Position numbers and translations under genes: made by a program. Positions 7,630 through 19,039 of a DNA stretch of 64,000 nucleotides are shown piece after piece. This DNA comes from Enhydrobacter aerosaccus (GTDB lineage Bacteria; Pseudomonadota; Alphaproteobacteria; Reyranellales; Reyranellaceae): NCBI RefSeq assembly GCF_900167455.1, contig NZ_FUWJ01000008.1, positions 185,378 to 249,377 of the forward strand, in the 5' to 3' direction. Below the pieces are notes generated by a model that worked only from the letters and a program-made list of their open reading frames with translations, was not told the origin of the DNA and ran no database searches. The number at the start of each line of letters is the position of its first letter. The stretch's first letter is position 1.

Positions 7630-8307
7630 GTCCCTCATCTCCTTTACGAGTTTGCCACTCACATCAATGCCTCCTTCATATTTCAGGAGATGGCCCTGGC
7701 GTTTGAGCCACATCAATCTCCACGCGTGAATAGAGAGAAGGCAAGTGCGATTGTGGCAGCACGATTTATGCCAAGGGTGTCACCGAAGGTGTGTTGCGAT
7801 TGCATCGGCAACCACCACGAATATGACCCGTTGGTGTCCAATATTGGACTCGTCTTCTGCCAGAGGATGGGCCAGCATTATTAGACTTGTGTCTGCGGAT
7901 CTGACGTCGTCGCATGTTGACGCTTGTCGCAACGACGTTCGGCTTCAGACATCATGAGAAGCTCTTGCGGTCCTCAATTTGGCGCAGCGAGAAATCATTG
8001 CAGTCGTCGTCGGTTTGAGGCGAGTGGCGACGTTGGCCTTACCTGTTGATCGCTCAGTAGCGTGCGGATGCGCTCTGCGGCGTTGGGGCATGATCATCGT
8101 GGCCATAGCAAGCGTGCGCCTAGCTTATGTCGTATGTACATTCAAACTCTGTCGCCCAGCCGTCACATCGGAACTGCTCGGCACCACATAGGGCCGACGG
8201 GAGCCATCGGCACCCTTAGCCATATCGTCCTGCGCAACGCCGTTAGTTCGATCGCTGCGTAATGGCGCAGCGTTTGCGCGTTGCGTAGGGCGGTGGTCGT
8301 CATGGCT
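7630..8307. other. Gap without a supported gene
   Basis: About 680 bases with only short unrecognisable open frames on both strands. It contains the upstream region of the lipoprotein and the end of the minus-strand cus operon. I see no clear terminator hairpin. Confidence 0.5.
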
Positions 8308-9750
8308 TTATCGCATCGGAGTTGATGCTGCTGGCTCGCTTCCCGCCGAACCACCGCCGCCAATGGACAGAGCGGCCTGCAGGTCGGCCGCGGCGAGATA
8401 GAAGTCACGTCTGGCGTCCAGTGCGGAGGCGGTGGCGCCAATGCGCACGCGAGCGTCGACGAAGAACCGGAACAGATCGACGCGCAGCCCCTCACTGGCC
8501 AGTACGCCATTGGTGTACCGGAGTGACACCTCACGGGAGACCGTCTGGCGTAGCGGCAAGACTTGGTCACGCCAGAAACGGGCGATGTCGTAGGTGCCGC
8601 GATAGGTCTCGTAGGCGATGCGCGCCTCGGACCGTGCATTGACAGCTTTCGCAGCCAGCCGGTTCAGCGCCCGCATGTAGGTCTCCCGCGCTGTCCGCGT
8701 GCGGGCTTCGCCGGTATCGAAGATCGGTATCTGGAAGTCGAGCTGGGCGCCGCCGCGGTTGATTGCGGTATTGCTGTTGGTCAGCATGTTGGGCGATTCG
8801 TTATTATAGATACCGGCCAGTTGCAGCATCGAGACGTACCGGGTCGCTTCCGTGAGTGACAGGGATTTAGCCAGCGCGGCGACATCGTAGCGCCCCATGG
8901 TCAGGTCGACTCTGCGGTTGATGGCTTCGACCTCCACCGCAGCCATTGATTCGGGTTCGCCAGGAAGGGGCGGCAGCTCGGCGGGGAGGTTGAAGGAAGT
9001 GTCGCCTCCCCACAGCCCCATGAGGCGGATCAGCGTCTCACGCTCGCGGCGCGCCGTGAGCCGGGCCTGGGCCATGCGCGCGCTCAATTCGGCATAGAAG
9101 GCGGCCAGTTCGACCTGATCGAGCTGGTCGCCGCCGCCGGCTTGACCTAGCTGCATATTTAGCCTCACGGCCGCGTCGACCGTGCTGCGCGCCTGGTCCA
9201 GGAAGCCGACCTGCTGCTGGGCCGCAACCGCCCGGATATAGGCCCGGCGCGTGTCCGTCGCGAGGGTCAGCGTGGTCGCCACAGCTTGTTGCCGAGCACG
9301 GGCAAACTGATCAGCGGCAATCTCCGTGCGACGAGGCAGGGTGATCAAGCTGAGGATGTCTCCAATCAACCTCAGCTCGAAATTTGCGACCCCCGTGCCT
9401 CCGATGTTCATCAGTGAGATCCCTGGGTTGGGCGGCAGGCTGGCCTGGACATAGGCTGCCTCGGAGATTCCCAGGTCGTTGTACGCCGCCTGCAGGTCGC
9501 GGTTGTTGAGCAGCGCCACCTCAACTGCGGCATCGGCCGAGAGGGGTGCAGCCAGCAGGGCCGCGACTTGTTCCTTCGCCCGCTGCGCCTGCTCGATGTT
9601 GGTGATCTTGACGACGTTCTTGCCGACGCCGGGACTGATCTCCCGGCCAACGCCCAGTGCCACCTCACCCATGCCGCCATCTGGCGAGAAGGAGGCGCAA
9701 CCGGCCAGAAGGCCGATAAGAGAAAGCACGATGATGGCAGCCTTTGTCAT
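8308..9750 (-). CDS. cusC: TolC-family outer-membrane channel of the Cus-type pump
   Basis: A 480-residue TolC-type lipoprotein (lipobox LAGC). Duplicate helical repeats carry NRDLQAAYNDLGISEAAYVQ and PIFDTGEARTRTARETYMRALNRLA, nearly the same as in the channel at 470-1930. It is the last gene of the minus-strand cus operon; its ATG overlaps the preceding small lipoprotein stop (ATGA). It should form the outer-membrane exit duct for CusBA. The symbol is by role; sequence alone does not separate CusC from other heavy-metal TolC proteins. Confidence 0.9.
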   Translation of the reverse strand: MTKAAIIVLSLIGLLAGCASFSPDGGMGEVALGVGREISPGVGKNVVKITNIEQAQRAKEQVAALLAAPLSADAAVEVALLNNRDLQAAYNDLGISEAAYVQASLPPNPGISLMNIGGTGVANFELRLIGDILSLITLPRRTEIAADQFARARQQAVATTLTLATDTRRAYIRAVAAQQQVGFLDQARSTVDAAVRLNMQLGQAGGGDQLDQVELAAFYAELSARMAQARLTARRERETLIRLMGLWGGDTSFNLPAELPPLPGEPESMAAVEVEAINRRVDLTMGRYDVAALAKSLSLTEATRYVSMLQLAGIYNNESPNMLTNSNTAINRGGAQLDFQIPIFDTGEARTRTARETYMRALNRLAAKAVNARSEARIAYETYRGTYDIARFWRDQVLPLRQTVSREVSLRYTNGVLASEGLRVDLFRFFVDARVRIGATASALDARRDFYLAAADLQAALSIGGGGSAGSEPAASTPMR

Positions 9751-9923
9751 GGCGCCACTCCCAGTCCGTGATAGACCGTCCCAGCCATCACAGGGCGATA
9801 GGGCGCGTCGGCAGAAGTTGCAGCTGGGTCATCGGGCTCGGGCAACGGCGCCAGCGTCGGTGGCGGCGACGTTGCACAGGCCTGGAGCATCATCAGTAAT
9901 GCGGTGAGCACGAAGAGCTTCAT
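9747..9923 (-). CDS. 58-residue lipoprotein between cusA and its TolC gene
   Basis: It starts at the ATG 9921-9923, which overlaps the cusA stop (ATGA), and ends in a TGA that overlaps the TolC start. So it is coupled on both sides. The signal is MKLFVLTALLMMLQAC with Cys16 as the lipid site, followed by a Pro-rich linker and YRPVMAGTVYHGLG. The protein at 246-473 has the same layout and core. The short length and linker suggest a small outer-membrane accessory of the channel. A longer open frame here in the same phase is only read-through of antisense-like sequence in cusA and is not a gene. Confidence 0.8.
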   Translation of the reverse strand: MKLFVLTALLMMLQACATSPPPTLAPLPEPDDPAATSADAPYRPVMAGTVYHGLGVAP

Positions 9924-12900
9924 GGGTGCGCCTCCCTTAGCGTTCCAGGTGCAGGTTGCAGACGCCAGCCTTTCACCAAACCATAGAGCGCGGGAATGAC
10001 CAGCAAGGTGAGCAGGGTCGAGCTCACCATGCCGCCGATCATCGGTACGGCGATGCGCTGCATCACTTCCGAGCCCGTTCCGGTGCTCCACAGGATCGGC
10101 AGCAGGCCGGCCATGATGGCCGTCACCGTCATCATCTTTGGCCGCACCCGCTCGACGGCGCCTTCGACGATCGCGGCCGTGAGGTCGGAGCGATCGAGCG
10201 GGCGCCCTTCGGCTTCCGCTCGTCGTCGGCGCTCGGCCAAGGCGTGGTCGAGGTAGATCAGCATCACGACGCCGGTCTCTGCGGCGACGCCGGCAAGGGC
10301 GATGAAGCCCACCGCGACGGCGACGCTCATGTTGAAGCCCATCCACCAAACGAGCCAGAAGCCGCCGACCAGCGAGAAGGGCAGCGACAGCATCACGATC
10401 AGAGTCTCGGTCATGCGCTGGAAATTGAGGTAGAGGAGCACGAAGATCAGGAGCAGCGTCGCCGGCACCACGATCTGCAGGCGCGCCTCCGCCCGCTGCA
10501 GAAACTCGAACTGGCCGCTCCACACGGCGTAGAAGCCGGGCGGAAACTTGACCTTTTCCTGTACGGCGCGCTGGGCGTCGGCGACGTAGCTGCCGAGGTC
10601 GCGGTCGCGGTAATCGATGAAGATGTAGACCGCAAGCTGGGCGTTCTCGGTGCGGATCGTTGTCGGGCCCCGATTGGGCTTCACCTCGGCGAGCTGGCCG
10701 AGCGGGATCATGCCGCCGCTCATGGTCGAGACCAGGACGTCGGAGGCGATGGCCCGCGGATCGGAGCGCAGGTCACGCGGATAGCGAACGTTGATCGTAT
10801 AGCGTTCCCGGCCCTCGACCGTCGTGGCGACTGCCTCACCACCGAGCGCGCTCGACACGGCCAACTGGAGATCCTCGATCAGCACACCGTATTGTGCCAG
10901 CCGGGTCCGGTCGGGCACGATGTCGAGGAAGGAGCCGCCGGTGACACGCTCAGCGAACGCTGATGTCGTGCCGGGCACATCGCGCACTGCAGCTTCGACC
11001 TGGCGCGCGAGATTTTCCAGCTCGCCGAGATCGCGGCCTAAGAGCTTGATGCCGACGGGCGTGCGGATGCCCGTCGCCAGCATGTCGGTACGGGCCTTGA
11101 TGGGCATCGTCCAGGCGTTACTGACGCCGGGGAATTGCAGGGCCCGGTCGAGTTCAGCAATTACCTTGTCGATGTTCATGCCAGGCCGCCACTGGTCCTT
11201 GGGCTTGAGGCTGATCACCGTCTCGAACATCTCGAGCGGCGCGGGATCGGTGGCGGTGGTGGCGCGGCCGGCTTTGCCGTAGACCGAGGCCACCTCTGGG
11301 AACGACTTGATGATCTTGTCCTGGGTCTGCAGCAGCTCGGCCGACTTGGTGACCGAGAGCCCAGGCAACGTGGTCGGCATATAGAACAGCGTACCCTCGT
11401 CGAGGCTTGGCATGAACTCGCTGCCGACCCGCATCGCAGGCCATGCCGTCGCGCCCAAGACCGCCACCGCCAACAGGATAGTCGGCACGCGCGCCCACAA
11501 TACCAGCCGGATCGCCGGACGATAGAGCCAGATCAATGCTCGGTTCACCGGGTTGCGTCGCTCGGGCAAAATGCGGCCGCGCACGAACAGGACCATCAGC
11601 GCCGGCACCAGGGTCACCGACAACAGCGCCGACGCGGCCATTGCGAGGCTCTTGGTCCAGGCCAGCGGCTTGAAGAGCCGGCCCTCCTGGGCCTCCAGGG
11701 TGAAGATCGGCAGGAACGAGACGGTGATGACCAGCAGGCTGAAGAACAGCGCCGGGCCAACCTCGACCGCCGCCGCTATGATCGCCTCAGTGCGCGACTC
11801 CCCCGGCTTCAATCGCTCAAGGTGCTTGTGGGCATTCTCGATCATGACGATCGCGGCGTCGATCATGGCGCCGATGGCGATGGCGATGCCGCCGAGGCTC
11901 ATGATGTTCGAGCCGATGCCCAGCGCATGCATGGCGAGGAACGCCATCAGAATGCCAACCGGCAAGGTGATGATCGCTACCAACGCCGAGCGTAGATGAA
12001 GCAGGAATACGAAACAGACCACCGCTACCACGATGCTTTCCTCGATCAGCGTGTAGACGAGGGTATCGATGGCCCGATAGATCAGGTCCGAGCGATCGTA
12101 GACTGGCTCGATGCGAACACCCTCCGGCAGGCCGGCGGCAATCTCCTTGAGTTTGGATTTGACGTTGGAGATGACATCGAGCGCGTTCTGCCCGAAGCGC
12201 TGCAGCACGATGCCGCTCACCACTTCGCCCTCGCCATCGAGCTCGGTGAGGCCGCGCCGCTCGTCGGGGCCAAACTCGACCCGCGCCACGTCGCGCAGCA
12301 GTACCGGCACCGTCCCGTCGGCGCGCAGCACAATCTGCTCGAGGTCCGCCACGTTCTTGATGTAGCCTCGCCCGCGCACCATGAACTCGGTCTCGGCCAT
12401 CTCGACGACCCGGCCGCCGACTTCCCGGTTGGAGGCCCGGATAGTCTCGATGACTCGGGCGAGCGGCACGCCGAACGAGCGCAGCTTCACGGGATCGACG
12501 ACGACGTTATATTGCCGCACGAAGCCGCCGACGCTCGCCACTTCGGCCACGCCTTCGGCCTTGGCCGCGCCGAAGCGGATGAACCAGTCCTGCAGCGAGC
12601 GCAACTCGGCCAGGGAGCGGTTCGCGCCGACCACAACGTACTGGTAGACCCAGCCGACTCCGGTGGCGTCCGGTCCTAGGGTCGGCTTGACGTCGGCCGG
12701 CAGTTTCTGGGCGCCCGAGTTGAGGTATTCCAGCACGCGGCTGCGCGCCCAGTAGATGTCGGTGCCATCCTCGAAGATGATGTAGACGAACGACACGCCG
12801 AAGAAAGAGAAGCCGCGCACGGCGCGACTGCGCGGCACCGCAAGCATGGCCGTCGTGAGTGGATAGGTGACTTGGTCCTCGACCACCTGCGGCGCCTGAC

Positions 12901-13063
12901 CCGGCATCTCGGTATAGACGATGACCTGGGTGTCGGAGAGGTCAGGGATGGCGTCGAGCGAAACGTGGCGGACGGCGTAGAGACCACCGCCGATCAGACC
13001 GAGGGTCGCGATGAAAACCAGCAGCAGGCTCCGGGCAGACCAACGGATGAGGCCGGCGATCAC
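9920..13063 (-). CDS. cusA: CusA-type RND heavy-metal exporter (Cu(I)/Ag(I))
   Basis: A 1047-residue inner-membrane RND pump of normal family length. It opens with the HME-RND signature (IRWSARSLLLVF, SLDAIPDLSDTQVIVYTEMPGQAPQ). The TM4 Asp for proton transfer is in AIAIGAMIDAAIVMIENAHKHLE. Two methionine positions matching the Cu(I)/Ag(I) relay of CusA are visible (FYMPTTLPG and TDMLATGIRTPVGIK). The start ATG overlaps the cusB stop and its own stop overlaps the small lipoprotein gene. It exports monovalent copper or silver from periplasm and cytoplasm through the TolC partner. A 3' fragment of another cusA is at 43928-44047. Confidence 0.95.
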   Translation of the reverse strand: MIAGLIRWSARSLLLVFIATLGLIGGGLYAVRHVSLDAIPDLSDTQVIVYTEMPGQAPQVVEDQVTYPLTTAMLAVPRSRAVRGFSFFGVSFVYIIFEDGTDIYWARSRVLEYLNSGAQKLPADVKPTLGPDATGVGWVYQYVVVGANRSLAELRSLQDWFIRFGAAKAEGVAEVASVGGFVRQYNVVVDPVKLRSFGVPLARVIETIRASNREVGGRVVEMAETEFMVRGRGYIKNVADLEQIVLRADGTVPVLLRDVARVEFGPDERRGLTELDGEGEVVSGIVLQRFGQNALDVISNVKSKLKEIAAGLPEGVRIEPVYDRSDLIYRAIDTLVYTLIEESIVVAVVCFVFLLHLRSALVAIITLPVGILMAFLAMHALGIGSNIMSLGGIAIAIGAMIDAAIVMIENAHKHLERLKPGESRTEAIIAAAVEVGPALFFSLLVITVSFLPIFTLEAQEGRLFKPLAWTKSLAMAASALLSVTLVPALMVLFVRGRILPERRNPVNRALIWLYRPAIRLVLWARVPTILLAVAVLGATAWPAMRVGSEFMPSLDEGTLFYMPTTLPGLSVTKSAELLQTQDKIIKSFPEVASVYGKAGRATTATDPAPLEMFETVISLKPKDQWRPGMNIDKVIAELDRALQFPGVSNAWTMPIKARTDMLATGIRTPVGIKLLGRDLGELENLARQVEAAVRDVPGTTSAFAERVTGGSFLDIVPDRTRLAQYGVLIEDLQLAVSSALGGEAVATTVEGRERYTINVRYPRDLRSDPRAIASDVLVSTMSGGMIPLGQLAEVKPNRGPTTIRTENAQLAVYIFIDYRDRDLGSYVADAQRAVQEKVKFPPGFYAVWSGQFEFLQRAEARLQIVVPATLLLIFVLLYLNFQRMTETLIVMLSLPFSLVGGFWLVWWMGFNMSVAVAVGFIALAGVAAETGVVMLIYLDHALAERRRRAEAEGRPLDRSDLTAAIVEGAVERVRPKMMTVTAIMAGLLPILWSTGTGSEVMQRIAVPMIGGMVSSTLLTLLVIPALYGLVKGWRLQPAPGTLREAHP

Positions 13064-14322
13064 TTGCTCTCTCCCGCCGTGAAGGCGCCAAGGGCCGCCC
13101 TGAGGTTGCTTTCGGCATCGATCAGGAAGGTCGCCGAGGTGACCACACGCTCGCCGGGCTTCAGCCCGTCGAGCACCTGAATATAGCCCGGCACGCGCGC
13201 GCCAAGTTTCACAGTCACCGGCTGGTAGCGGCCCTCGCCGCGCTCGACCAGCACGATCTGGCGCTGGCCGCTGTCGATCACCGCGGAATCAGGTACGGCG
13301 AGCGCGCGGCCTAACGGCGCCTCGATCTCGACAGTGGCCGCCATATCGGCGCGCAGCAGACCATCGAGGTTAGCAACCTCGATGCGCAGCCGCGCCGTGC
13401 GGCTTTCCTTGCCAACATTAGGATAGATGAAGATCACGCGGCCGGGAAACGACCGGTCGGGCCAGGTGTTGACCATTACCTTGGCCATGTCGCCCACCTT
13501 CACGTAGGCGAGATCCTGTTCGTACACCTCGGCCAGCACCCACATCGTTGATGTATCGACGATGCGAAACAGCACCTCGCCAGGCTGGTAGCGCATCCCC
13601 TTGACCGCCATCTTCTCGACGACCGTGCCGGCTTCTGGCGCCGGTACGCCGATGATGCGTGACGCGCGGTCGCCACGGCGCAGCTTCTCAAGCTCGGCCT
13701 CGGGATAGTCGAGATTGCGCAGGCGGCCCTCGGCACCGCTCTGCGTGCCGCGCGACAGCATGAATTCTTGCTGCAACACGTTGAGCTCGGGGCTGTAGAC
13801 GTCAAACAGCGTCTGGCCGGCCTTCACGACGTCGCCGGTGGCGTTGACGTATAGCTTCTCGATCCAACCGCCGAACTTCGGCGCGACCACGGCCTGGCGG
13901 CGCTCATCGTACTGCACTGAGGCGAAAGTGCGGATGGTCCGCGCCAGTTGCCGCTCCTCGACCAATTCGCTGCGCACGCCGAGCCGCTGCACACGATCGA
14001 GGCTCACCTTGACGATGTCGGAGGCCTGCGGTTCCTCTGCGTCGTCGCAAACCGGTATGTAGTCCATGTTCATCGAATCCTTTTTGGGCACCGGAGAGGT
14101 GTCGGGTGCACCCATGGGATTGCGATAGAGCTTGGCCGGCTTGCCGTTACACGGGCCTGTGGGTGTAGGCCCTGCAGCCTCAGCGGATGACATCGGGCTG
14201 GTTGAGCCGCCGCCTTTCCACATCCACAATACGGCCGCGGCGCCTGCGGCCCCGCCCAGCAACAGCGCGATTAGTGCAATCGCCACGGCGTGCGCCCGCT
14301 TCGAATGTGGTGTGCTCGACAT
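13060..14322 (-). CDS. cusB: CusB-type membrane-fusion protein
   Basis: About 420 residues. The ATG at 14322 has GGAAGGAAAG upstream and is preferred to the TTG/GTG-type start at 14376. It has an N-terminal membrane anchor (AHAVAIALIALLLGG), then a heavy-metal-binding segment (YRNPMGAPDTSPVPKKDSMNMDYIPV) with the Met residues of the HMBD family, then barrel-sandwich and beta-barrel domains (GWIEKLYVNATGDVVKAGQ, GEVLFRIVDTSTMWVLAEV). It links CusA to the outer-membrane channel and passes copper to the pump. It overlaps cusA by ATGA. Confidence 0.94.
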   Translation of the reverse strand: MSSTPHSKRAHAVAIALIALLLGGAAGAAAVLWMWKGGGSTSPMSSAEAAGPTPTGPCNGKPAKLYRNPMGAPDTSPVPKKDSMNMDYIPVCDDAEEPQASDIVKVSLDRVQRLGVRSELVEERQLARTIRTFASVQYDERRQAVVAPKFGGWIEKLYVNATGDVVKAGQTLFDVYSPELNVLQQEFMLSRGTQSGAEGRLRNLDYPEAELEKLRRGDRASRIIGVPAPEAGTVVEKMAVKGMRYQPGEVLFRIVDTSTMWVLAEVYEQDLAYVKVGDMAKVMVNTWPDRSFPGRVIFIYPNVGKESRTARLRIEVANLDGLLRADMAATVEIEAPLGRALAVPDSAVIDSGQRQIVLVERGEGRYQPVTVKLGARVPGYIQVLDGLKPGERVVTSATFLIDAESNLRAALGAFTAGESK

Positions 14323-14411
14323 GCGACTTTCCTTCCAACAACTTCGCGTGCATACGCGCGAGCAGCGCAATGCCATTGGGCATTCGCTTCGCTACAATAA
14401 ACGCCGGGAAG

Positions 14412-14759
14412 TTAGGATCGCGGTGGGAAGGGATCGGGTGGCGGAGATCGGCCGTGCAGGGCGGCCAGCGGCGAGGAACTTACCGCTTCAGTAGTTGATA
14501 CCTCGCCCAAGGAAAAATCCGCCACGCCGAGTGCGGGCGCCGAGGCCACGCAGGTCTGGACGCAACCGGCCATCGCTGGCTGGCACGGCGCCCCTTGGCA
14601 ATCGGGGCAGTTATCACAGGGCTCGGATGCTGCCGTCTGCGCCGGTACGCTATTGAGCGAAGGTGCCGACCAAAAAGCGGCCGCGGGCAGACTTGCCGCG
14701 AGAACGGCAAAGCAGCCTAGCAGGCCAGCAAGGAGGCGCAGACGACGCATGGCTATCAT
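14412..14759 (-). CDS. Small Cys-rich periplasmic protein upstream of cusB
   Basis: 115 residues: a signal peptide (LLAGLLGCFAVLAASLPAAA), a Cys-rich centre (CDNCPDCQGAPCQPAMAGCVQTC) and a Pro-rich end, GRSPPPDPFPPRS. The end pattern recurs in the protein at 21896-22258 (HAPDPYPPKS), so the two seem to be one family often found beside metal efflux genes. The Cys cluster could bind Cu(I). Function is not established. It lies 90 bases before the cusB start on the same strand. Confidence 0.7.
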   Translation of the reverse strand: MIAMRRLRLLAGLLGCFAVLAASLPAAAFWSAPSLNSVPAQTAASEPCDNCPDCQGAPCQPAMAGCVQTCVASAPALGVADFSLGEVSTTEAVSSSPLAALHGRSPPPDPFPPRS

Positions 14760-14884
14760 AGTGTGCTAATCGGTCGAACCTGCCAACAGCGCAGTTGTCA
14801 CGGTAGCGCTATGCAGAGACGCTGCATCGATGACGTGGCGCTCGGTCAAGACCATCCAGCCTTCGGTTCGAATAACGCGACTTC

Positions 14885-15004
14885 TCACTTCGATCGTAGG
14901 TATTTGACGAGAGCCGCAGCGCCCAACAGAAGAACGACGAGGGCTAGTATTCCAATCACCCATCCGCCCCACATCATGGTACCGCAGGACATGTCTTCGC
15001 TCAT
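14885..15004 (-). CDS. 39-residue single-pass membrane peptide with Cys and Met
   Basis: The reading is ATG at 15004 to TGA at 14885. The product begins MSEDMSCGTMMWGGWVIG, then a hydrophobic helix and a basic end (KYLRSK). An AGGAG lies eight bases upstream. Cys and three Met residues just before the helix would face the periplasm or lie in the membrane and could bind Cu(I). Tiny membrane peptides of this layout are common in copper clusters. It sits between the Cys-rich protein gene and cusF on the same strand. Confidence 0.65.
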   Translation of the reverse strand: MSEDMSCGTMMWGGWVIGILALVVLLLGAAALVKYLRSK

Positions 15005-15112
15005 CGGATTTGCTCCTATCGGATTGGCCAGCGCGCAGTGACGTAACGGCGCCACATTTCGGCAGTTGCCGATCGCCGACGGACCGAAGCGCGCGGGATA
15101 GACACGGTCTTC

Positions 15113-15433
15113 TCAATTGGCGTTCTCTATTCTGCTGATGACGAACCCATCGTTGTCGCGTTCCACCTTGAACCGAATCTTGTCTCCCGGGGTCAGTCCC
15201 GCGAGCATCGCCGGCTCCTTGACCTGAAAGATCATGGTCATGGCTTCCATGAAGAGGTGGGGAATCGGCTTGTGCTCGATGGCGATTTTGCCGGCATCGC
15301 GATCGACCTTAACGACGCGGCCGGCCGGCAGAACCCGTTCGCCGGACAGGCTGGCGTCCCACGCCAGCGTGGGCGCGGCAATTGCGCTGGTCGTCGCTGC
15401 GACGACCAGCACTATAGCTCTTCGGCGGAACAT
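15113..15433 (-). CDS. cusF: CusF-like periplasmic copper chaperone
   Basis: 106 residues with a signal peptide (AIVLVVAATTSAIAA) and a CusF-type barrel: VLPAGRVVKVDRDAGKIAIEH then FMEAMTMIFQVKEPAML, matching the copper-site region of CusF (His, Met-x-Met). GGAGAG stands six bases before the ATG. It is in the minus-strand cluster with cusBA and should feed Cu(I) to the pump. It is more diverged from the copy at 3876 than the broken copy near 18.1 kb is. Confidence 0.88.
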   Translation of the reverse strand: MFRRRAIVLVVAATTSAIAAPTLAWDASLSGERVLPAGRVVKVDRDAGKIAIEHKPIPHLFMEAMTMIFQVKEPAMLAGLTPGDKIRFKVERDNDGFVISRIENAN

Positions 15434-15526
15434 TTTCGCTCTCCATTAGTGTTTCTGGATCCGACGAGTGCCCGGCTTGGGCAGGCGCCGTGGGCCGAGT
15501 TCGTCATCGCGGGGCCCGCCAAGACT

Positions 15527-15982
15527 TCATTGGGCTTCAAAAGTGACCGCGCCGATGACCATCTCGCTCGCGCCGCGGATGGCCCTCTCCTGCATGAACT
15601 TCACGGAGAAGTTGAAAGAGCGCTCGACGCGAGTTGCACCTGGCACCTTGGCGGAGACCTGCAATGTTTGGGGACCGGCCGTTGCCGTCTCGACCCGGAA
15701 TCGGCGGGAACCTGTTGGCTCGGCGACAGAATTGATCGCCGTGGCCGCGGAGATCTCCGCGTTCGCAACCGGTGTGCCGTTGACCGTGCGCACGAGGCGG
15801 ACGGTTACCTCCGACTTGCCGGGACCGGCAGGTACCGCCTGCACCACCTCGAAGCGATAGTCTGAGGGTGCGGCGAAGGCGGGGCCCGACATCGTGATCG
15901 CCACCGCGGCGGCGAAGCTCGCTGCGCTCGCGGCCAGAACGGCGCCTGCGCCGACGAGCGTTCTGTGAAGTGGACATTCCAT
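15527..15982 (-). CDS. YtkA/FixH-like periplasmic protein
   Basis: 151 residues with a long Ala-rich signal peptide ending near GPAFA and a compact beta-rich domain (YRFEVVQAVPAGPGKSEVTVRLVRTVNGTPVANAEI). This resembles YtkA-like domains, which occur in copper and respiratory clusters but have no firm biochemical role. AAGGAG precedes the ATG. It is the first gene of the minus-strand cluster and its upstream region carries an ECF-type promoter facing it (16037-16065), so it is probably under the adjacent sigma factor. Confidence 0.65.
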   Translation of the reverse strand: MECPLHRTLVGAGAVLAASAASFAAAVAITMSGPAFAAPSDYRFEVVQAVPAGPGKSEVTVRLVRTVNGTPVANAEISAATAINSVAEPTGSRRFRVETATAGPQTLQVSAKVPGATRVERSFNFSVKFMQERAIRGASEMVIGAVTFEAQ

Positions 15983-16036
15983 GTCGATCTCCTTGTCTTG
16001 AGGGTTCCCTTCCTAAGGGAGTGGCCTCTTCCCGTA

Positions 16037-16065
16037 AGTTCGACGCGGAGGGGGCAACGGATACA
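16037..16065 (-). promoter_or_regulatory. ECF-sigma-type promoter for the YtkA-like gene
   Basis: On the minus strand: -35 TGTATCC, 16-base spacer, -10 CGAACT. This matches the SigF-type ECF consensus (GTAACC, N16, CGAA) described in Caulobacter and relatives at all but one position. It lies about 55 bases before the start at 15982 and mirrors the promoter at 16139-16167. Confidence 0.6.
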
Positions 16066-16138
16066 GGGTCATGCTCACGTTGACGTGAACGGCGCATTCG
16101 AGTGCACTGCGTGCCGTGACGAATTTTTTGGCGGTCCG

Positions 16139-16167
16139 TGTAACCAGGGCTGCCTCTCGCCCGAATA
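16139..16167 (+). promoter_or_regulatory. Autoregulatory ECF-type promoter of the sigma factor gene
   Basis: TGTAACC, a 16-base spacer and CGAATA, ending 16 bases before the sigma-factor ATG. This is an exact match to the GTAACC-N16-CGAA form known for SigF-type ECF sigma factors. The short leader means transcription starts almost at the gene. Confidence 0.65.
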
Positions 16168-16182
16168 AAAGACTGCAGCCGT

Positions 16183-16740
16183 ATGTCGACGAATGAGCAA
16201 GAGCTGAAGGCACTCATGACGGCCGGCCTCGACGGCGACGCTGCTGCATATCGGATGCTGCTCGAACGGCTCAGCCAGCATTTGCGCAGCTACTACCGAG
16301 GACGGCTTTCGCGTGTCGGGCGGGGGGACTTTGAAGCGGAGGATCTATTGCAGGAAACGTTGCTGGCGATCCACACCAGACGGCATACCTACGATCGAGC
16401 AGAGTTCTTCACGCCATGGATGCACGCCATCGCACGTTACAAGCTCATCGACTATCTGCGCCACACCAACTCGTCCTACCGCGACGTGCCGCTCGAGGAC
16501 GCCGGCGAGCTTACTTCGCACGCCGATCATGACGGGGTGGAGAGCTCGATCGACCTTAGGCGGCTGATGGCCCGGCTACCGGTCAAGATGCAACAAGCCA
16601 TTAAGTACGTGAAACTGGACGGATTGAGTGTCGCCGAGGCGGCGCGCCGCTCGGGCATGACGGAGTCGGCGGTCAAAATCAGCATCCACCGCGGATTGAA
16701 GGCGTTATCGGCGGTGATTAGGCCGGAGCACAAGACATGA
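16183..16740 (+). CDS. ECF sigma factor (SigF-like, NrsF-controlled)
   Basis: A 185-residue sigma-70 protein with only regions 2 and 4. Region 2 covers about residues 45-90 (DLLQETLLAIHTRRHTYDRAEFF, WMHAIARYKLIDYLR, the promoter-melting and -10 contacts). Region 4 covers about residues 125-180 (LPVKMQQAIKYVKLDGLSVAEAA, ESAVKISIHRGLKAL, the -35 helix). Its end overlaps the NrsF-type gene by ATGA, the standard sigma/anti-sigma arrangement. Members respond to heavy metals (chromate, cadmium) or singlet oxygen in other alphaproteobacteria. Divergent promoters on both sides match its expected site. Confidence 0.93.
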   Translation: MSTNEQELKALMTAGLDGDAAAYRMLLERLSQHLRSYYRGRLSRVGRGDFEAEDLLQETLLAIHTRRHTYDRAEFFTPWMHAIARYKLIDYLRHTNSSYRDVPLEDAGELTSHADHDGVESSIDLRRLMARLPVKMQQAIKYVKLDGLSVAEAARRSGMTESAVKISIHRGLKALSAVIRPEHKT

Positions 16741-17378
16741 AAACAGACGATCTGGTCAATATGCTGAGCACCAATGTCGAAGTCGTCGATCAACGGCTGG
16801 TATCTCGTACCATCGCCGGAGCCATCGCGGTGGGCGCGGTGGTCGCTCTTGGCGCCTCACTGGTCATGCTTGGCGGCCGGACCGACGTTTGGACCGCTGA
16901 GGCACTTGGCTTCATGATCGCCAAGCTCGCTTTCGCAGTGGCGGTCGCGGCGCTTGCCTTTTTCTATTTGACCAGATTTGCGCGACCAGCCGGCAGCCGG
17001 CGTGGGTCGATAGCGCTGGTGGCGTTGCCGTTCGTCGGCATTGTCGGGCTGGCCGCGATCAGCTTGGCTAATGCGCCCGCGGGGCATTGGCAAGTGATGT
17101 TCATGGGGAACGAATGGCTCGAATGCCTGCTGTCCATACCGATAATCGCCATTGTTCCCTTCGCCCTCGTGGTCTGGGCGGTTCGACAAGCCGCGCCGAC
17201 GGATCTAAGACGAGCTGGCGCACTTGCCGGCCTCATCGCAGGGGGGCTGAGCGCCGCTGGTTACGCCTTGCATTGCACCGCCGATTCGTTGCCGTTCGTC
17301 GCCATCTGGTACAGCGGCACGATCATGTTGTGCACACTCGCTGGCGCCGTCCTCGGCCCCCGGCTGCTGCGCTGGTAG
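16737..17378 (+). CDS. NrsF (DUF1109)-type membrane anti-sigma factor
   Basis: 213 residues with about six transmembrane segments and the DUF1109 layout (VDQRLVSRTIAGAIAVGAVV at the N-terminus, LRRAGALAGLIAGGLSAAGYALHCTADS in the C-terminal half). Cysteines (EWLECLLS, ALHCTAD, IMLCTLAG) lie in or near membrane segments; in NrsF homologues conserved Cys pairs are needed for metal sensing. It should hold the upstream ECF factor inactive until an envelope metal or oxidant signal. It is translationally coupled to the sigma gene. Confidence 0.88.
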   Translation: MKTDDLVNMLSTNVEVVDQRLVSRTIAGAIAVGAVVALGASLVMLGGRTDVWTAEALGFMIAKLAFAVAVAALAFFYLTRFARPAGSRRGSIALVALPFVGIVGLAAISLANAPAGHWQVMFMGNEWLECLLSIPIIAIVPFALVVWAVRQAAPTDLRRAGALAGLIAGGLSAAGYALHCTADSLPFVAIWYSGTIMLCTLAGAVLGPRLLRW

Positions 17379-17472
17379 TGGCAAACGCCGTTCAGAAGTG
17401 GCAAAGCACTCCTACATCGATGGGACCGCCTGCGCGTCGGGCCACAGGCCTACGATTGGAAAGACACAAGAA

Positions 17473-17944
17473 CTAGCGATGGCGCAACAATCGCTTGTGC
17501 CGTGAGCGAACCACCGCACAAGCAATACTTGGGACAATAAGCCATCGAGTAAACGGAGAAACTCCCGTGCCGAGAAGGGGTAGGGTCGGCATCAAGTTGG
17601 AATATTGCCAAGTCTTCCGGACTATCGTGTTCATCCATTCACTGTAGACGGACGGCGTAGCCAACCGCAATGATGATTGTCGCCATCATAACAACGGTGA
17701 ACCTTTCGGAAGGCCACGATCGATGTCCGACAACCAGCAGCGCGATCAGAAGTGATAGGCTTGCGATCATCAATAAGCCGATCGTGCAATGGAAGACCGC
17801 GATCGCAATTTCTCCCCAGGAACCCGTACTCCAAATAGTATAGAGGGGAAGTTGCAGCGTCTCCCAAACCAAATGGAGAATGCCCGACGTGGCAACGTAA
17901 AGCCGGACTGAGCTAAGCCAGTGACCCTGCGGGACTGAGGTCAT
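17473..17944 (-). pseudogene. Frameshifted membrane protein gene (4-bp tandem duplication)
   Basis: The first part (ATG at 17944, segments such as LHLVWETLQLPLYTIW and AVFHCTIGLLMIASLSLL) ends early at 17639. The rest continues in another frame as YSEWMNTIVRKTWQYSNLMP and LLGTGVSPFTRWLIVP to 17473. At the junction the coding strand reads CGTCCGTC (17647-17654); removing one CGTC joins the two frames cleanly into GYAVYSEWMNT. I know this as a common uncharacterised polytopic membrane protein family of about 160 residues. It is either a recent pseudogene or a sequence error. Confidence 0.75.
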
Positions 17945-18070
17945 CACGCCTTAGCAGTCCTCCTGGCTAGATGTCCCGCCGAGGCCCGATGGGCCCATTG
18001 CATCCTCTACTGCCATGCCGTGTCTAGACGTTGCTGCATGTGCTTGCCGTGCAGATGAGGTCGTTTCTGT

Positions 18071-18221
18071 GTTACCGTGATGGCTCCGTCAACGCGGTCG
18101 GCCTCGAACTCGAGCTTGTCGCCAGCCTATACCTTGCCGAGCATCGCCGGATCGGCGACACGAAACACCATCGTCATGCTGTCCATGTCGAGCTTCTTGA
18201 TGGGGCGTGCTTGAGGGTGAC
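18071..18221 (-). pseudogene. Broken cusF copy
   Basis: The minus strand reads VTLKH, then after a one-base loss PIKKLDMDSMTMVFRVADPAML, then GKV and a TAG stop (18127-18129), then GDKLEFEADRVDGAITV in the same frame. The intact CusF at 3876-4166 has HGPIKNLDMDAMTMVFRVADPAML and IEFEADRVNGAITV at the same places. So this is a degenerate duplicate with a frameshift and a nonsense codon. Its signal peptide is gone. Confidence 0.85.
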
Positions 18222-18301
18222 AAGGTGCGCGCGAGCGACGTCGCGACACGCCGTCAGTCAGAGCTGAGTTGAGGGTTGGCCGTGGTTGGCGGTGTCCTCG
18301 C

Positions 18302-18777
18302 TCAAGGCTTGTGAGCGGGCGCGGCGGCGGCCATAGCCGCAACCACTATCTCGACATCGATACTGCCGGCCTTCTCGAACACCAAGGTGACTGGGATCTT
18401 CGCATCCTTGGCGAATGGCGCCTTGAGGCCTATGAACGTGATGTGAAAGCCGCCTGGCTTCAGCTCGACGGTGGCGCCGGGCGGGATGTCCAGGCCCATG
18501 TCGAGTTCGCGATGCGCATAACGTTGCGGTCCATTTTCATCTCGTGATTCTCGACTTTGTCAGCTGCCGGGCTCTTGGCGCTGATCAGTCGGTGCGGCGA
18601 GGTGCTCTTGCTGGTAATCACGAGAAAGCCGCCGCCAGTCTGCGCGGTGGACGACGTGGCACACGCCCAGGGCTCGACGATGTCGAGCGCTCCGAGCTTG
18701 TATTCATGGGAGGCTGCAGAGAGAGCCGGGACGGCGAGCGCAAGGGCGACGGTCAGGGCCAGGCAGAGGCGGATCAT
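18302..18777 (-). pseudogene. Frameshifted PCuAC-type copper chaperone (DUF461)
   Basis: From ATG 18777 the first frame gives a signal peptide (IRLCLALTVALALAVPALSA) and the PCuAC start (LGALDIVEPWA, TGGGFLVITSKS, ADKVENHEMKMD). A one-base loss near 18512 shifts the frame; the rest (GLDIPPGATVELKPGG, FHITFIGLKAPF, KIPVTLVFEKAG) continues to 18302. The combined product has the His and Met residues of the H(M)x10Mx21HxM copper motif, so the ancestor bound periplasmic copper for oxidase assembly. It is now broken unless the base is a sequencing error. Confidence 0.85.
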
Positions 18778-18927
18778 GGCGACAACACCTTCAGGGACGT
18801 GATTTGGCTTGGGCACGAGTCACGCCGACGGCTGAGCCGTCGGCATCAAACACCGAGTTGGGCTGGCCCTTGACGAGCGAGAGCTTAGGATCAGCGATGC
18901 GGCGTCATTCCTCGCGACGATTCGTCC

Positions 18928-18958
18928 TTGAACCTCTAGTGACTATAGAGAGTACACG
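18928..18958 (+). promoter_or_regulatory. MerR-type promoter upstream of dsbB
   Basis: TTGAAC, a 19-base spacer (CTCTAGTGACTATAGAGAG) and TACACG. The long spacer with a central imperfect palindrome (CTCTAGT/ACTATAGAG) is the hallmark of promoters twisted open by MerR activators. The dsbB start is about 80 bases downstream. Confidence 0.6.
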
Positions 18959-19039
18959 TGGCCCGCGGAGAAGACGGACAGGAGGCCAGCATATCTGCGG
19001 GATGTTGTTACGTGACAATGAAACCAGGGTGATGATGAC

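Follow-up and report, generated by a model that had tools for sequence, protein, structure and literature searches.

Can an RND copper exporter be controlled by a sigma/anti-sigma switch? In enterobacteria the copper/silver efflux system CusCFBA, which combines an RND pump with the periplasmic protein CusF, is controlled by the two-component system CusRS. A similar cluster lies in a stretch of 64,000 nucleotides from Enhydrobacter aerosaccus that was analysed as a whole (the window), and for this cluster we propose control by an ECF sigma factor and its anti-sigma factor NrsF, unlike the enterobacterial case. A preliminary description of this DNA had already read the 200 bases between the two divergent sets of genes as a matched pair of promoters, placing the cluster, at least its first gene, under the NrsF-linked sigma factor. 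Comparative sequence analysis makes it very probable that a SigF/NrsF switch (ECF group 16) coupled to Cu/Ag export controls transcription in both directions from this gap, and most likely the switch would activate itself and the copper pump together.

The rightward genes form the pair expected of such a switch: the ECF sigma factor contains regions 2 and 4, and the gene after it is of the DUF1109/NrsF type. The SigF/ECF16-like sigma factor of 185 aa (16183..16740, plus strand; Sigma70_r2 and Sigma70_r4_2) is overlapped by 4 bases by the gene for the 213-aa anti-sigma factor NrsF (16737..17378, plus strand; PF06532, E 7e-61). NrsF cysteines C130 and C180 are invariant in all 12 aligned NrsF proteins of the group; the two cysteines described as important in Caulobacter are C131 and C181 (PMC3511200). 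Since the NCBIfam equivalog model AntiSigF_NrsF scores the protein at 99 bits against a cut-off of 300, it is not that equivalog itself. About 1 kb past nrsF we also observed a gene for a PCu(A)C-type copper chaperone (18460-18816, minus strand).

The leftward genes, all on the minus strand, begin with a YtkA/FixH-like protein of 151 aa with a predicted beta-sandwich (15527..15982). Its match to PF13115 is weak (E 0.036; 15.2 bits, below the Pfam cut-off of 25.9), and eight of the 11 members of this YtkA family match the same profile at E<=1, the best at 1e-10; a fold search with the protein gave no match at E<=0.001, the best being CrdA at E 0.02. There follow a CusF-type periplasmic copper-binding protein (15113..15433; PF11604, E 2e-25), a putative membrane microprotein of 39 aa with homologues in relatives (MSEDMSCGTMMWGGW..., 14885..15004), a Cys-containing small protein between cusF and cusB without Pfam or NCBIfam matches (14412..14759), a CusB-type adaptor recognized by domain matches (13060..14376), a CusA/CzcA-family RND pump (9920..13063; TIGR00914, 1207 bits against a cut-off of 701) and an outer-membrane channel in the position of CusC (8308..9750; PF02321, 29.5 bits against 22). 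CusF, adaptor, pump and outer channel of the Cus type thus stand in one cluster, and from CusF and the TIGR00914 match it is predicted to export Cu(I)/Ag(I). The microprotein (MSEDMSCGTMMWGG...) is 82-95% identical in four relatives (L075-L078); a convincing match is absent in L079-L082 and L084-L086, and weaker MMWG-type matches adjoin the sigma loci L098, L099, L103, L107 and L108. No terminator-like site was found on the minus strand from ytkA to cusB. The two minus-strand sites that were found both lie inside cusA, and the result is weak either way because the scan total (4) is below chance expectation (6.2). Among the genes adjoining the window's sigma/NrsF pair, a bufferin-type precursor with its MNIO enzyme was not found.

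The gap spans positions 15983-16182, from the ytkA start codon (15982) to the sigF start codon (16183), and carries two divergent 6+16+6 elements at exactly the positions first described, with N16 on each strand. The putative promoter of sigF-nrsF (16139..16167, plus strand) consists of TGTAACC (16139-16145), N16 and CGAATA (16162-16167); 17 bases separate its CGAA from the sigF ATG. The putative promoter of ytkA (16037..16065, minus strand) consists of TGTATCC (16065-16059), N16 and CGAACT (16042-16037); here CGAA and the ytkA ATG are 56 bases apart. GTAACC-N16-CGAA is the SigF site published for Caulobacter, where it is accompanied by 5' RACE (PMC3511200). The earlier statement that the hexamers fit this consensus therefore holds exactly for the sigF side, while the ytkA side deviates by one base in its -35 (GTATCC instead of GTAACC). 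For EcfF, which uses a close form of the promoter, the transcript start is reported 6 bp after the -10 box (PMC3420878), so that starts would be predicted near 16172 (plus strand) and 16032 (minus strand). The target promoter of BcrS is likewise described as a close form of the SigF site (PMC8315932). A sigma-70 promoter was not found in the gap by a scan of positions 8000-19000, which yielded 3 sites in total against 2.3 expected and so stayed at chance level.

With up to two mismatches, TGTAWCC-N16-CGAA occurs 17 times in the window against 17.8 expected by chance, and therefore only the exact form is informative. Exact matches are limited to the two elements of the gap, with none elsewhere in the 64 kb, including the vicinity of the PCu(A)C-type gene. 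When the gap was shuffled 20,000 times by dinucleotides, an element arose on some strand in 17 of the shuffled sequences and both elements in none; on these grounds we rejected a chance match of the elements. Across the genome GTAWCC-N16-CGAA has 25 matches compared to 8 for the reversed control, implying that many single genomic matches are due to chance.

To follow the arrangement across the order, the YtkA-like protein was searched in 76 genomes, giving 14 matches in 13 genomes. We compared the gaps of the 11 strong matches (E 5e-24 or better), which come from 10 genomes including that of the window, and left out three weak ones (G009, G066 and G028; E 4e-6 to 3e-4). Both elements, always with N16, are kept in all 11 divergent sigF/ytkA gaps. 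The sigF-side hexamer is GTAACC at every locus, and the ytkA-side hexamer is GTATCC at ten and GTAACC at one (G074). In the ten alignable gaps, G074 with its gap of about 1 kb being excluded from the column count, all 20 motif columns are invariant (10/10 per element), compared to 17 of the 165 columns outside the motifs and the palindrome described below. This conservation does not merely reflect recent divergence, as identity to the window copy is 43-86% for the YtkA proteins and 71-93% for the eight other sigma proteins of alignment A2 (L077, which lacks an ATG where the aligned start lies, was kept out of A2, as were the broken genes at L081 and L082). In G043 an ATG is missing at the aligned position, and its sigma start must accordingly lie further in or be non-ATG. 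At two loci, G024 (L081) and G029:C188 (L082), the sigma gene next to the gap is fragmented and both elements persist; as G029 also has an intact copy of the sigma locus at C49 and G024 carries other NrsF genes, these elements may be read by a different sigma factor of this group. The pump genes are linked to the gap as well: cusB/cusA lie on the ytkA side at seven of the 11 loci and cusBA on the sigF-nrsF side at three, namely in G045 (behind nrsF, with only the Cys-protein in between), G005 (about 0.7 kb behind nrsF) and G033 (separated from nrsF by two opposite-strand genes), so that cusBA stays with the switch while changing sides. At G029:C188 it was not found within the 11 kb examined.

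The genome search for further sites suggested in the preliminary description returned 11 matches to GTAACC-N16-CGAA, several of them before other genes. Six fall within 17 kb of contig C11, around the second of three sigma/NrsF pairs in this genome (window, C11 and C24). Four of them precede the gene of a small EGVKC-type protein (by 44 bases), which adjoins an MNIO enzyme gene (PF05114), a DoxX gene (by 39), a thioredoxin-like gene (by 62) and an ORF of 394 aa (by 103), respectively; the remaining two lie within or next to predicted ORFs. No exact site was found before the sigma gene of C11. The small C11 protein has no Pfam match and by eye resembles the Buf_EGKCG bufferins. On C24, a short gap with the matched divergent elements GTAACG-N16-CGAA and GTAACA-N16-CGAA separates the third sigma/NrsF pair from a divergent DUF2282-MNIO-DUF2063 operon (G000:C24, L087:5600-5760). 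The matched-gap design therefore occurs twice in this genome, with bufferins in one case and a Cus pump in the other, so that a single sensor family appears to govern buffering at one site and export at a second.

A profile search of genome contigs with the sigma alignment, from which 80 of at least 122 confirmed relatives were kept, extended the comparison to other genera. The matches listed include 25 close relatives (L090-L114, 38-95% identity); L090 appears to be the same as contig G025:C109 and was left out, and L115-L169 (22-36%) stand outside the counts. The remaining 24 loci of other genera, some on short contigs and including two from one genome more than once, are the basis of the following counts among the matches listed. 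GTAACC-N16-CGAA starts 37-47 bases before the sigma start at 16 of them, a CusA relative (>=60% identity) is present in the examined stretch at 12, and a matched divergent pair occurs at three (L110, L111 and L112), of which L111 and L112 face a DUF2282 gene. Altogether, the 348.5 kb around these 24 loci contain 39 consensus sites and one reversed-control site. When the region upstream of YtkA/FixH or CusB matches was scanned at ten loci, four (L091, L092, L093 and L102) had an element about 1.0-1.5 kb upstream and six (L099, L100, L104, L106, L108 and plasmid L204) had none in the up to 2.2 kb scanned, and linkage alone is therefore no proof of control. Direct SigF control of the pump is thus well supported in the family of the window and possible in the Methylobacterium types, while most Bradyrhizobium/Afipia types give no sign of it. 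A related gene pair was also observed on conjugative plasmids. On pMR68 of Pseudomonas sp. K-62 (L203:10271) the sigma/DUF1109 pair adjoins genes for a MerT-family protein and a cation transporter, the first of these preceded by a GTAACC-N16-CGAA site, and the plasmid of Bradyrhizobium sp. PSBB068 (L204) encodes FixH, TolC, adaptor, RND, regulator, sigma and DUF1109 consecutively.

The ytkA side of the gap carries a further feature that is absent from the preliminary description. The palindrome TCACGT-TG-ACGTGA (TCACGTNNACGTGA, 16075..16088, no strand), a putative operator, lies 10 bases upstream of the ytkA -35 hexamer (TCACGTTGACGTGA at 16075-16088). It is exact in eight of the 11 gaps and has one or two mismatches in the other three; 8 of the 12 columns of its arms are invariant. 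Its centre lies 43-50 bases before the predicted ytkA start, and its distance to the hexamer is 4, 5 or 10 bases depending on the locus. The window's genome has no second exact copy. The ten locus-bearing genomes together contain nine exact copies, all of which precede a SigF-type promoter: eight are those of the divergent gaps, and the ninth is found in G043, 5.6 kb from the first, where GTATCC-N16-CGAACT follows after 4 bases and small Met-rich reading frames lie beyond it (L179:4673-4730, G043:C159). A longer form, GCTCACGTNNACGTGA, is present in 7 of 75 genomes of the family, each of them locus-bearing. With one mismatch allowed, the ten genomes show 68 sites compared to 46 for the reversed control, which is near background away from the locus. 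Of the 24 loci from other genera among the matches listed, 23 had no copy of the palindrome with up to two mismatches within 600 bases before the sigma gene; L098 has a copy with two mismatches far upstream of its sigma gene. A search of 385 genomes of the class for the composite of palindrome, with relaxed arms, and promoter gave four matches and none for the control. One is the window, and the other three (L199, L201 and L202), from other families, have TCAC-N6-GTGA before GTAACC-N16-CGAA; their neighbours include another ECF sigma gene, a 319-aa protein that by eye is MsrP-like and a 167-aa exported protein that by eye is of the YHS type. These three would fit SigF targets, too few as they are, and the palindromic companion may be wider than the family of the window. 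The position of the palindrome and its tie to a single promoter type point to an operator bound by a dedicated regulator, and hence to a second regulator of the ytkA side, so that SigF may not be the sole input. No regulator gene common to all loci was found in the 11-18 kb compared at 11 loci and positions 2-40 kb of the window; candidates named by eye were a MerR-like gene at 5 of 12 and a CsoR-like gene at 2 of 12.

Put together, the locus may work as follows. NrsF, known in relatives as a membrane protein of six helices with a conserved pair of cysteines, would hold SigF until metal or oxidative envelope stress, the signal known in relatives and presumed here, frees it. SigF-RNA polymerase would then transcribe sigF-nrsF rightward from GTAACC-N16-CGAATA, providing positive autoregulation together with its own brake, and ytkA leftward from GTATCC-N16-CGAACT, with the leftward transcript probably continuing through cusF, the microprotein, the Cys-protein, cusB, cusA and cusC. 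A second regulator bound to the palindrome, 4-10 bases upstream of the ytkA -35, would tune the efflux side. The elements, their conservation, the gene content and the linkage are seen directly in the sequences; SigF binding, a single cluster transcript, copper as inducer and a function of the palindrome are what we infer. Tentatively, and with somewhat less than even confidence, we consider that the leftward promoter is a composite with two inputs, a weakened SigF site (GTATCC) and a dedicated palindromic operator (TCACGTNNACGTGA). If so, efflux would fire only when envelope stress, sensed through NrsF-SigF, and a second signal coincide, and sigF would answer to envelope stress alone.

How firmly SigF commands the pump depends on how other readings of the leftward element are judged. 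It is exceedingly improbable that this element is a chance match or a functionless relic: it has one mismatch to the consensus and the reversed control does find 8 matches in the genome, but its ten motif columns are invariant in ten diverged gaps, no shuffled gap reproduced both elements, and a second palindrome-plus-promoter module exists elsewhere in G043. A real promoter could still be read mainly by the sigma factor of C11 or C24, with the window's own sigma factor autoregulating only sigF. The presence of three NrsF genes, the GTAACC-N16-CGAA sites on C11 and the survival of the ytkA element beside a broken sigma gene in G024 and at G029:C188 would agree with such an exchange. We nevertheless regard it as unlikely, given that the ytkA element stands next to an apparently intact sigF at nine of the 11 loci, that G029 also holds the intact copy at C49 and that the C24 pair uses GTAACG/GTAACA.

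A somewhat better, if still doubtful, case can be made for the ytkA operon being governed mainly by the palindrome-bound regulator, in which case copper control would come from there rather than from NrsF and the SigF-type core would serve as a platform. The palindrome, with 0-2 mismatches, is in all 11 gaps and at the second such promoter of G043, the exact copies in the ten genomes adjoin this promoter type without exception (9/9), and the non-consensus -35 is itself conserved. Yet the compared stretches share no regulator gene, and a distance of 4, 5 or 10 bases to the -35 alters the helical face, which is unusual for an activator touching RNA polymerase; the 6-base shift in spacing speaks against a rigid contact of this kind. 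We favour SigF/NrsF control of both sides of the gap. The proposal that the cluster is under the NrsF-linked sigma factor is supported by comparison, through the elements at 11 of 11 loci, the paralogous pairs and the linkage of cusBA. Whatever binds it, the palindrome offers a handle on a copper-linked putative regulator with very few exact sites, and an ECF site joined to a second putative operator would be an unusual kind of promoter.

Among the closest known systems is SigF-NrsF (ECF16) of Caulobacter crescentus, which likewise has a sigma gene with downstream NrsF, two cysteines, GTAACC-N16-CGAA and a link to copper (PMC3511200, PMC8224329): copper is reported to induce the SigF regulon, and growth in its presence is poorer in a sigF mutant (PMC8224329). 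The targets described there comprise DUF2282/DUF692/DUF2063/DoxX operons together with a pair of sulfoxide reductase genes, whereas here they would be YtkA-CusF-CusBA(C), accompanied by the palindrome. Buf1-type bufferin clusters, too, are described as including sigma and NrsF genes (PMC12452194). Bradyrhizobium EcfF-OsrA (PMC3420878) and Brucella BcrS-AbcS (PMC8315932), both ECF16, share the sigma/anti-sigma family and the promoter class, and in Brucella bcrXQP lies directly upstream of bcrS (PMC8315932); they differ in responding to peroxide or hypochlorite, with methionine sulfoxide reductases as prominent targets. In Cupriavidus metallidurans the pair rpoQ-rsqA is similarly divergent from a metal-induced operon, gigPABT, forming a divergon in which gig is induced by copper and gold; the target is gig there and a Cus cluster here (PMC10304878). 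According to that report, a gig promoter was not found, evidence for RpoQ-dependent gig transcription was absent, rpoQ-rsqA expression depends on RpoD, and deletion of rpoQ raised gig expression in metal-treated cells, which its authors attribute to sigma-factor compensation (PMC10304878). By analogy, this deletion result would count against the sigma-switch reading. Among the matches listed in the open-licence PMC literature, none describes an NrsF-linked sigma factor in control of a Cus pump. The copper response of SigF in Caulobacter and the divergon of sigma/anti-sigma pair and gig in Cupriavidus are thus already described in these sources, and what appears new is the Cus pump as partner of the switch, together with the extra putative operator: the same switch with a different payload. 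An RND copper/silver exporter would thereby join copper-buffering peptides and methionine repair, the outputs for which this sigma/anti-sigma switch has been known so far, and where the better-known relatives couple the switch to bufferins or gig, that of the window would couple it to copper/silver export.
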